Assembly: GCF_900115395.1 (NCBI RefSeq)
Contig: NZ_FOWE01000007.1
Location: 1 to 64,000 of the forward strand
Direction: 5' to 3'
Length of the DNA: 64,000 nucleotides
DNA from: Geodermatophilus obscurus
GTDB taxonomy: Bacteria; Actinomycetota; Actinomycetes; Mycobacteriales; Geodermatophilaceae
Under the pieces are notes generated by a model. It was not told the DNA's origin. It did no database searches and saw only the letters and a program-made list of their open reading frames with translations. This document shows positions 18,235-20,222 of this stretch, piece after piece; positions within the stretch are counted from its first letter, which is position 1, and every line of letters begins with the position of its first letter. Made by a program: the position numbers and the translations under genes.

Positions 18235-18543
18235 TCAGTGCCCGGACGGGGCGGGCGCCGAGCCGGCCACCAGGGCGAGGAAGTCACCCACGCGCACGTG
18301 CTGCTCCAGCGGGTGCCGGAACCGCCCGTGCGTGGCGACGGTGTAGTGGTTGCGGCGGCCCACCCTGCGGCGCTCGACGTACCCGGCGGCCTCGAGGTCG
18401 GCGACGATGAGCTGCACCGCGCGGTCGGTGATGCCGACCCGCTCGGCGATGTCGCGGACCCGGGCCCCCGGGTCGGCGGCGAGGCTGACCAGCACGTGCC
18501 CGTGGTTGGACAGGAACGTCCAGCCGGGCGAGGAGGCGCTCAC
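18235..18543 (-). CDS. Small winged-helix transcriptional regulator
   Basis: A 102-aa single-domain winged helix protein of the MarR/ArsR-like type. The sequence GWTFLSNHGHVLVSLAADPG opens the fold, VRDIAERVGITDRAVQLIVA is the recognition helix-turn-helix, and DLEAAGYVERRRVGRRNHYT the basic wing. A C-terminal helix (LEQHVRVGDFLALVAG) may dimerise. I chose the GTG at 18541-18543; upstream residues in the frame are not protein-like. It diverges from the promoter and riboswitch candidate at 18593-18729 and could control it. The ligand is unknown. Confidence 0.75.
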   Translation of the reverse strand: MSASSPGWTFLSNHGHVLVSLAADPGARVRDIAERVGITDRAVQLIVADLEAAGYVERRRVGRRNHYTVATHGRFRHPLEQHVRVGDFLALVAGSAPAPSGH

Positions 18544-18592
18544 GCGGGCACGGTACGCGGGGCGCGGGCGCCACCGGCCGGTGGCGGGACCG

Positions 18593-18621
18593 TTGTGGGC
18601 GAACTGGATTACGCGTATCGT
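18593..18621 (+). promoter_or_regulatory. Predicted sigma70-type promoter
   Basis: A TTGTGG hexamer at 18593-18598 and TATCGT at 18616-18621 are separated by exactly 17 bases. Transcription would start near 18628, immediately before the structured leader at 18629. The tight fit of promoter and leader supports both predictions. Confidence 0.6.
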
Positions 18622-18628
18622 GGTTCGT

Positions 18629-18729
18629 GCGAGGGGAGTACCCGACCGCACCAGCGAAGCCGCCGCCCGTCAGTCCCGGCCCCCCGGCCCGGGCGCGGCC
18701 GGTCCCGCAGGGACCGGGGGAGACCTCGC
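18629..18729 (+). ncRNA. Candidate yybP-ykoY (Mn2+-sensing) riboswitch
   Basis: The leader begins GCGAGG followed by GGAGTA and ends GGGGGAGA followed by CCTCGC, so GCGAGG (18629-18634) and CCTCGC (18724-18729) close a 6-bp P1 stem. The GGGGAGUA and GAGACC boxes beside this stem are the hallmarks of the yybP-ykoY class, and a middle CCGTCAGTCCCGG resembles its third conserved arm. Known members sense Mn2+ and mostly control exporters (MntP, TerC, UPF0016). Here the next gene is 18748-19182, which is unusual. Covariance-model confirmation was not possible. Confidence 0.6.
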
Positions 18730-18747
18730 CCACCGTGGGAGACGCCC

Positions 18748-19182
18748 GTGATCGCGACCATCCCCGCACCGCCACCCCCCGCGCCGGCGGACGCCGCACC
18801 CGCCCGCCGCACGCCGGGCACACCACCGCGCCTCCTGGTGCCGCTGACCGGCCGGGAGGGCGCGCTCGCCGCCCTCGACGGGGCCCACGCCTCCGCCCGG
18901 GAGACCGGGCGCGAGGTGCACACCGCCCTGCTGCTCCCCCGGACGCCGCACACCCCGGGCGGCGCGCTCCGGGCCCGGCCCGGCGAGGAGGCCGACCGCG
19001 AGGCCACCGAGCTGGTCGCCCTGGTCACGCAGCGCGCCGCGGCGGCCGGCGTGCCGGCGCGGATCACCGTCCACCGGCTGAGCGGCCTGCACGGGCGGCG
19101 CCGGCAGCGCGTCCTCGACCGCGCCGTCGCCCGCCTCGCCCGGCGGCTCGACGCCGTGCCGGTGGGCTGGCCGGCGCCGTGA
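18748..19182 (+). CDS. Hypothetical protein, weak universal-stress-like pattern
   Basis: A 144-aa product from GTG 18748-18750, with GGGAGA five to seven bases upstream. After a Pro/Ala-rich leader (PAPPPPAPADAAPARRTPG) comes RLLVPLTGREGALAALDGAH and EVHTALLLP, which resembles the first strand-helix-strand of a universal stress or Rossmann-type protein. The Arg-rich helical C-terminus (LVALVTQRAAAAGVPARITV, RVLDRAVARLARRLDAVPVG) follows. No nucleotide-binding loop is evident, so the assignment is tentative. Its stop overlaps the GTG start of the baeRF gene (GTGA), so the two are translated together from the transcript carrying the riboswitch candidate. Confidence 0.6.
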   Translation: MIATIPAPPPPAPADAAPARRTPGTPPRLLVPLTGREGALAALDGAHASARETGREVHTALLLPRTPHTPGGALRARPGEEADREATELVALVTQRAAAAGVPARITVHRLSGLHGRRRQRVLDRAVARLARRLDAVPVGWPAP

Positions 19183-20222
19183 CCGCCACCCTGCCGCGCG
19201 CGACCGGCCCGACGCCCGAGCAGGTGGTCCTGCTGCAGTCGCTGCGGGACGACCTGTGCGTGTCGCTCCTGGCCTCCACCACTCCCGCACCGCGCATGGC
19301 CGACGCCGACGCCCGGACGCTGCAGCGCCTGGCGGCCGATGCCCGGGTGCGGCTGGCCCGGGACGGCGCCCCGCCCGAGCTCGCCGACGCGCTGGAGGCA
19401 CTCGTGGCCGAGGCCCGGACCGGACCCACCGGCGCGGCGGTCGCCCTGTTCGTGAACCGGGCGCTGCGCCAGGTCGTCCGGCTGCCGGTGCGGGTGGCCG
19501 ACCGGGTGGTGGTCGACCCCACCTTCGCCACCCGCGACCTCGTGCGGGCACTCCACCGCATCCCGCGGCACCTGGTGCTGCTCCTCTCCGAGCGGGAGGC
19601 GCGGCTGCTGGAGGGCGGCGCCGGCACGCTGCGACCGCCGGCCCGCTCGCCGTTCCCCCTGACCGCCGACGACGACGCGGGGGACGCCTTCCTGCGCCGC
19701 GTCGACCGGGCGCTGGGGACCTTCCTGCGCCTGCACCCGGCCCCGCTGGTCCTCGTCGGGGGTCACCGGGTGGTCGGCCGGTTCCGGCGGCTGTCGCACA
19801 ACACCGGGCGGCTGGCGGGCACGGTCCCCGGGAACCTGACCACCGCGCCGGCGACGGTGCTCGTCCCGCGCGTCCGCGCGGTGCTCGACGGCTACCTGCT
19901 CTCGCGGCAGGACGAGGCGCTGGCACACCTGGACCACCGGCGCTCCCGCAACGCGGTGGTCGAGGGGATCGACGCGGCCTGGCTCGCCGCCCGCCGGGAA
20001 CGGCCGGAGATGCTGGCCGTGGAGGAGGGCTTCACCCTCGCCGCGCGGCTGAGCCCGGACGGCGACTTCCTCGTCCCCGCCGAGGACGTCGAGCACCCCG
20101 ACGTGGTCGACGACGTGGTGGACGAGCTGGTCGAGACGGTGCTGCTGCGCGGCGGGTGGGTGGCCTTCGTCGAGGACGGCACCCTCGCCGGCGCCGGCCG
20201 GGTCGCACTCACCCTCCGGTGA
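19179..20222 (+). CDS. baeRF3-like protein (bacterial archaeo-eukaryotic release factor family)
   Basis: A 347-aa protein resembling the bacterial relatives of archaeo-eukaryotic peptide-release factor domain 2 (baeRF). Family-like segments are SLRDDLCVSLLASTTPAPRM near the start, the strand-rich VRALHRIPRHLVLLLSEREA and RLLEGGAGTLRPP, then APLVLVGGHRVVGRFRRLSH and the C-terminal VVDELVETVLLRGGWVAFVE with DGTLAGAGRVALTLR. The family has been proposed to act at stalled or modified ribosomes, but its function in bacteria is not settled. A canonical GGQ is not evident; GGH and GGW occur at comparable places. It starts at GTG 19179-19181, coupled to the upstream gene. Confidence 0.75.
   Translation: MTATLPRATGPTPEQVVLLQSLRDDLCVSLLASTTPAPRMADADARTLQRLAADARVRLARDGAPPELADALEALVAEARTGPTGAAVALFVNRALRQVVRLPVRVADRVVVDPTFATRDLVRALHRIPRHLVLLLSEREARLLEGGAGTLRPPARSPFPLTADDDAGDAFLRRVDRALGTFLRLHPAPLVLVGGHRVVGRFRRLSHNTGRLAGTVPGNLTTAPATVLVPRVRAVLDGYLLSRQDEALAHLDHRRSRNAVVEGIDAAWLAARRERPEMLAVEEGFTLAARLSPDGDFLVPAEDVEHPDVVDDVVDELVETVLLRGGWVAFVEDGTLAGAGRVALTLR

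Follow-up and report, generated by a model that had tools for sequence, protein, structure and literature searches.

A leader RNA upstream of two overlapping plus-strand genes in the soil actinobacterium Geodermatophilus obscurus was assigned to the yybP-ykoY riboswitch class as a variant member. Its target, a Usp/Balon operon (Usp, universal stress protein), is of a kind new to this class. The leader lies within the 64,000-nucleotide stretch of contig NZ_FOWE01000007.1 that was analysed (the window), between these genes and a divergent MarR-like gene on the minus strand (Table 1). An initial annotation had proposed a yybP-ykoY-like Mn2+ riboswitch before a non-transporter operon. The class assignment was upheld by covariance models that match in both directions, by two-sided changes in the helices and by the presence of the same baeRF genes under canonical leaders or in TerC operons, with the L3 loop as the variant part and Mn2+ as the presumed ligand. 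The variant aptamer, with Mn2+ as the likely ligand, probably operates a switch between P1.1 and the SD that turns the Usp-like and Balon-like genes on within the TerC regulon.

Table 1. Features of the leader region, with positions in the window
Feature	Position	Strand	Basis
MarR-like winged-helix gene, divergent	18235-18543	-	MarR_2, 35.1 bits
Promoter	18593-18621	+	-35-like TTGTGG 18593-18598, 17-bp spacer, -10 TATCGT 18616-18621
Operator-like inverted repeat, degenerate copy	18600-18615	+	GAA-N6-TTC in relatives; copy in the window inexact
Variant yybP-ykoY aptamer	18629-18729	+	R2 match 18627-18733; covariation
P1.1, 5′ strand GCGAGG	18629-18634	+	Pairs with CCTCGC 18724-18729
L1 GGAGUA	18635-18640	+	Conserved across both leader types
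P1.2, 5′ strand CCC	18641-18643	+	Pairs with 18717-18719
P2 hairpin CGC-ACCA-GCG	18647-18656	+	Single-sequence fold, RNAalifold, covariation test
P3.1, 5′ strand	18659-18669	+	Pairs with 18690-18699, one bulged C
L3 UCAGUCCC, 8 nt	18670-18677	+	Between P3.1 and P3.2
P3.2 hairpin	18678-18689	+	Single-sequence fold, alignment, covariation test
P4 hairpin CGGTCCC/GGGACCG	18700-18716	+	Two-sided changes in 4/7 pairs
GAGA (3′ side of L1) and P1.1 3′ strand CCTCGC	18720-18729	+	Alignment, covariation test
Possible SD-sequestering hairpin	18726-18742	+	P1.1 3′ strand with SD GGGAG; predicted
SD GGGAG	18737-18741	+	Ribosome-binding site of ORF1
ORF1, 144 aa, universal-stress-protein-like	GTG start 18748, to 19182	+	Pfam Usp below cut-off, AF2 model, Foldseek
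ORF2, baeRF_family3/Balon-like gene, 347 aa	19179-20222	+	PF18845, NF052287, PDB 8rd8_B

Structure of the aptamer

The ORF1/baeRF type was represented by 15 leaders in 12 genomes; of these leaders, one (L035) was found directly before baeRF without ORF1. The 15 leaders were aligned with MAFFT (A5), the yybP-ykoY topology was laid onto the alignment manually, and the helix names of that class are used here. In this structure, 91.2% of the cells were found to pair and two-sided changes were found in 13 of the 33 pairs, a number reached by none of 500 shuffles, and the number of pair types was reached in 7 of 500, although such an excess over shuffles may also arise among related sequences that share no structure. 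When the structure was slid along the alignment, 1-3 two-sided pairs were obtained. The P3.1 helix contained two-sided changes in 5 of its 10 pairs. A four-way junction of P1, P2, P3 and P4 was thus supported by covariation, and the P1.1 helix was found to overlap with GGGGAGUA (L1) and GAGACC. The closing P1 stem, which the initial annotation had placed beside these boxes, was recovered as GCGAGG paired with CCTCGC around GGAGTA and GAGA, and the overlap of the GGAGTA and GAGA boxes with P1.1 was the same as in the folded TerC leaders. The L1 sequence GGAGUA was identical in 13 of the 15 leaders of the ORF1/baeRF type and in all 25 canonical leaders.

Unconstrained RNAalifold on nine leaders of the ORF1/baeRF type recovered P1.1, P1.2, P2, P3.1 and P4, with L3 partly paired; this partial pairing was set aside, as a matter of judgement, for the covarying P3.1 and the known L3 geometry. 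A CCCGG/CCGGG pairing was rejected as P3.2, being broken in L075, whereas the P3.1 that adjoins L3 covaries. Folded as a single sequence, the window leader left exactly the 8 nucleotides of L3 unpaired. The consensus of the 13 TerC leaders contained P1.1, P1.2 and P4, together with a P3 interrupted by a 7-nt bulge.

The fold stability of the window leader was no greater than that of shuffles (z 0.38), and the L3 geometry alone was found in 404 of 5000 shuffles and in 466 of 5000 random stretches of the window, which is not significant. Since neither test on the single sequence is significant, the significance rests on the comparison between genomes.

Covariance-model searches

No match was found by Rfam in the whole window or by a permissive RF00080 scan of positions 18300-19400, where the gathering score was not reached, and the window leader was absent from the RF00080 matches at E<=10 in the whole source genome. 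A permissive RF00080 scan (E<=10) of 19 loci, namely 13 of TerC type, one of GDT1/UPF0016 (L001) and five of ORF1/baeRF type, was also without a match. In the own genome, three strong canonical yybP-ykoY leaders were present, two before TerC (L079/L128 and L080/L127) and one before GDT1/UPF0016 (L001/L129). None of the three reached the RF00080 cut-off of 45 bits; in that genome RF00080 scored only 11.3 bits on the GDT1 leader. A significant RF00080 match, the lack of which the initial annotation had named as evidence against its proposal, was thus not obtained; yet 13 leaders of TerC genes from this bacterial family were missed as well, and the negative result is uninformative here for that reason. 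RF00080 has a blind spot for these high-GC actinobacterial leaders.

Three covariance models were built. R1 was made from the 13 TerC leaders, R2 from 25 canonical leaders whose downstream genes are TerC, GDT1 and in some cases baeRF, with none of the ORF1/baeRF type among them, and R3 exclusively from the 15 ORF1/baeRF-type leaders; the E-values of all three are rough. R1 scored 9.6 bits (E 5.3) on the window leader, ranked below another match, and scored higher on some other leaders of the type (22.5 bits for L075, 20.4 for L007 and 20.1 for L006). R2 gave a single match in the window, of 16.0 bits (E 0.047), and located 14 of the 15 ORF1/baeRF-type leaders at their proper positions (E 1.9e-4 to 7.3), L077 being missed. 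In the R2 search of the whole genome the window leader was fifth (E 3.67), behind the leaders of two TerC genes and of GDT1 and behind a chance match in coding sequence. Among 397 genomes of the order, R3 gave 24 matches at E<=1e-4, of which 12 were of the ORF1/baeRF type and 12 were others. All of the latter were found to precede TerC genes (by Pfam, ten together with L152 and with L141, the locus of L073). The leader is homologous with the TerC leaders, as the models match both ways.

Chance GC-rich hairpins that resemble the motif without any RNA function would account for the missing Rfam match, the fold z-score of 0.38 and the 404 of 5000 shuffles with the L3 geometry. They would not account for 15 leaders in 12 genomes, for their compensatory changes or for reciprocal model matches that fall before TerC only, and because of the covariation and the reciprocal search this explanation is strongly opposed and is considered extremely improbable.

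Conservation of the leader and its promoter region

Among 25 other genomes of the genus, 4 contained the leader with 85-90% identity. The pattern GAGGGGAGTAN{60,90}GGAGACCTC matched 22 of the family's 112 genomes, as compared with 0 of 112 for the reversed control pattern. Nine of these strict matches were before the ORF1/baeRF operon and 13 before TerC (as read from translations, with a Pfam run for L044). A narrower pattern gave six loci, all of Blastococcus or Geodermatophilus, in GTDB contigs, from which near relatives of the window may be missing. One genome (G066:C1:446000-484000) contained four baeRF copies within about 35 kb, each with its own divergent leader (L069, L075, L076 and L077/L078), one copy matching as two overlapping pieces.

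The TerC leaders of the same family and order contained the same motifs, were matched by the models in both directions and had the promoter repeat partly in common with the present type, but differed by the presence of a 7-nt L3, by the lack of P2 in the RNAalifold consensus (n=13) and by a strong SD-sequestering hairpin.

The promoter with a 17-bp spacer was present as first described, with TTGTGG and TATCGT, and on inspection all 14 relatives, like the window itself, were found to have TAnnnT where the -10 element stands; on the other hand, TTGTGG is a poor -35 element and no promoter was found here by a strict sigma-70 scan. The inverted repeat GAA-N6-TTC, often as GTGAA-N6-TTCAC or CGAA-N6-TTCG, was observed within the last 36 bases 5′ of the leader match, including the leaders at L044, L073, L083, L093, L120, L121, L125 and L126. 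An exact copy was found in 28 of 44 yybP-like leader rows as against 1 of 305 control blocks, and in 6 of the 15 leaders of the ORF1/baeRF type. The MarR-like protein is a candidate for binding to this repeat. Small winged-helix proteins of the MarR-like kind (WTFLxNHxHVL) were often found to adjoin baeRF genes, with relatives beside baeRF at L073 (2576-3106) and L083 and, by eye, at L074 (2-302), L086 and L093.

The L3 loop

The leader resembles the yybP-ykoY Mn2+ riboswitch (RF00080) of L. lactis and X. oryzae in its topology of P1.1-L1-P1.2, P2, P3.1-L3-P3.2 and P4 and in GGGGAGUA with GAGACC. The solved aptamers were reported in PMC6754395 to contain L3 loops of UCAAUUC (L. lactis, with A41) and ACAUACU (X. 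oryzae, with A48), in which that A contacts Mn2+ via N7. A CA step at positions 2-3 of these loops was also found in the window, with A18672 as the counterpart of A41/A48 by comparison with the solved aptamers, and throughout the 15 ORF1/baeRF-type leaders, including the Mn2+-discriminating A.

The difference from the class lies in the length of L3, in the blindness of the Rfam model and in the target, which is a Usp/Balon operon and not a transporter. The L3 of the ORF1/baeRF type was found to contain 8 nucleotides, NCA[GA]UC[CA]C, in 15 of 15 leaders, in place of the 7 nucleotides of the solved aptamers, and it is for this reason that the leader is classed as a variant. The canonical L3 contained 7 nucleotides in 25 of 25 rows, which were aligned to a model having that loop, and also in L120-L123 by a plain pattern, giving 29 canonical leaders from TerC, GDT1 and Balon loci. 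The L3 of L075 (ACAGUCAC) resembles the canonical loop with one inserted C.

The consistent difference between 8 nucleotides in 15 of 15 leaders and 7 in the 29 canonical ones could mean that the loop is retuned to another divalent ion (Fe2+, Co2+, Ni2+ or Cd2+) or to another Mn2+ threshold, the trigger of Balon then being separate from that of TerC. In PMC7266159 an altered ion specificity was considered likely for some yybP variants, which would contribute to an explanation of genes that do not fit Mn2+. Retuning is nevertheless considered unlikely, as none of the 15 leaders has lost the CA step or the A that contacts Mn2+ and as Balon genes elsewhere were found under canonical 7-nt leaders or within TerC operons.

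Leaders of the baeRF homologues

Close baeRF homologues (E<=1e-29) were collected by three partly overlapping searches over 108, 397 and 394 genomes. They comprised 27 genes, pieces of one gene being counted once, and 26 were assessed, the one of G197 being cut by a contig end. A yybP-ykoY-like leader was found to head the gene or the operon in 26 of 26 cases. In 15 of these the leader was of the ORF1/baeRF type. A canonical leader immediately preceded baeRF in G243, G226 and G388; that of the second baeRF match of G560 lay about 310 bases upstream. The canonical leader was followed by TerC and baeRF in G015, G111, G044, G460 and G560, and in G429, twice, by TerC, a small gene (with a YflT domain in L087, the one scanned) and baeRF. 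In G388, TerC and baeRF each had a leader of their own. At the level of loci, canonical leaders were found directly before homologous baeRF genes at L083 (63.5 bits), L084 (34 bits) and L085 (42.4 bits), and before TerC-baeRF operons at L073, L074, L093 and L120-L123. TerC-baeRF operons were observed in several actinobacterial families (L073, L074, L087, L088, L091, L092 and L093), and no mention of such operons was found in the literature among the matches listed.

Among 26 distant baeRF loci (L094-L119, E 2.2e-25 to 1.1e-13), searched with 1500 bases of flank, R1 at E<=1 matched one, L112, though R1 is possibly insensitive in other families. L112 was not counted as a leader-linked distant baeRF, as its gene is apparently disrupted and lies 1.2 kb from the leader. 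This leader type is constantly linked with this Balon subfamily, and the ORF1/baeRF operon probably forms one regulon with the TerC genes.

The encoded proteins

The target proved to be a non-transporter operon, as first annotated, with Usp-like and Balon-like genes by Pfam, NCBIfam, PDB and Foldseek comparisons. ORF1, which the initial annotation had left unrecognised, matched Pfam Usp (PF00582) with E 0.0073 and 17.3 bits, below the cut-off of 24 bits, and a sub-threshold Usp score was found in 2 of 14 orthologues. The AF2 model (pLDDT 79.5) contained an alternating strand-helix fold, and its Foldseek matches were mostly Usp proteins, the best being 4wny (a Usp, E 4.2e-4), with a TM of about 0.55. 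ORF1 is accordingly described as Usp-like, by similarity of the predicted fold only, and differs from the universal stress proteins in the Pfam scores and the TM given above.

ORF2, correctly named before as a baeRF gene, was found to contain a baeRF_family3 domain (PF18845, 84.2 bits as against a gathering score of 31.5). Its only NCBIfam match was NF052287 (AOC03_06830 family ribosome hibernation factor) with 187.2 bits, and it is called Balon-like rather than Balon because the equivalog cut-off of 330 bits was missed. The closest solved structure was PDB 8rd8_B (Balon, E 1.3e-19). By sequence check, ORF2 contained neither a GGQ nor a NIKS motif. In PMC10901736, AOC03_06830 is given the name Balon and the deposition 8RD8; it was reported to occupy the A site of the ribosome and to lack both GGQ and NIKS, and Balon-type genes are placed in stress operons. 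The neighbours here are different, namely Usp-like, TerC and MarR-like genes. A shutdown of translation was proposed for baeRF proteins in PMC6514570. The words 'TerC', 'manganese' and 'riboswitch' were absent from the text of both papers, as was 'metal' from that of PMC10901736. From its sequence, ORF2 is a predicted ribosome hibernation factor.

Possible mechanism of switching

For 14 of the 25 canonical leaders the tail was folded, and the SD was found to pair with the P1.1 3′ strand in 12 of the 14 (partly in L044 and not in L083); a metal-stabilised P1.1 should therefore free the SD. The corresponding hairpin of the window had -5.5 kcal/mol with the tail folded to the start codon, and it competes with the 6-bp P1.1. 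It was found to form in 10 of the 15 leaders of the ORF1/baeRF type when the tail was cut at the start codon, and to be the minimum fold of the 55-nt tail in one leader of this type only, L046, and not in the window, the row of L034 having been wrongly anchored in the 55-nt folding.

The transcript would start at about 18627, with the variant yybP-ykoY aptamer as its first element. On binding of a divalent metal, which is most likely Mn2+, L1 would dock against L3 and so stabilise P1.1, which would then retain the CCUCGC strand that could otherwise pair with the SD GGGAG, and the freed SD would allow translation of the Usp-like and Balon-like proteins. Mn2+ is suggested as the ligand by the sequence of the leader, and a control direction of ON through translation is suggested by analogy. 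The ON direction is the least certain step, because the SD hairpin is weak in the leaders of the ORF1/baeRF type. As for the purpose, a rise of free Mn2+ may signal stress, in which Usp and Balon would protect idle ribosomes; the genus Geodermatophilus is desiccation-tolerant.

The weakness of this hairpin would also fit a yybP-ykoY-derived RNA that is metal-blind or does not switch, the operon being controlled by the promoter operator and the MarR-like protein. The operator-like repeat before 28 of 44 leader rows, though exact in 6 of 15 of the type, and the recurrence of MarR-like genes beside baeRF agree with such control, but L1 and L3, the metal site, were among the best-conserved stretches and the helices covary, which would be needless in a dead aptamer, and this reading is regarded as quite improbable. 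The preferred reading remains a switching aptamer. In its more far-reaching form, which is put forward tentatively, the enlarged-L3 variant would be a metal-triggered hibernation switch that responds to a rise of Mn2+ or another divalent ion by turning on the Balon-type and Usp-like genes as part of the TerC regulon.

Significance

The yybP-ykoY class was described in PMC7266159 upstream of putative cation transporter genes and of some unexplained others. No report of a link between yybP-ykoY and a baeRF or hibernation factor was found among the titles and abstract starts listed, a scope outside which the two founding papers of 2015 lie. RF00080 overlooks the high-GC actinobacterial yybP-ykoY leaders. 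The natural pair of 7-nt and 8-nt L3 loops is a ready experiment on the discrimination of metals by RNA. Through a constant link of the class with a Balon-type hibernation factor, metal stress would act directly on the shutdown of ribosomes, and a role would be suggested for the baeRF genes linked with TerC.
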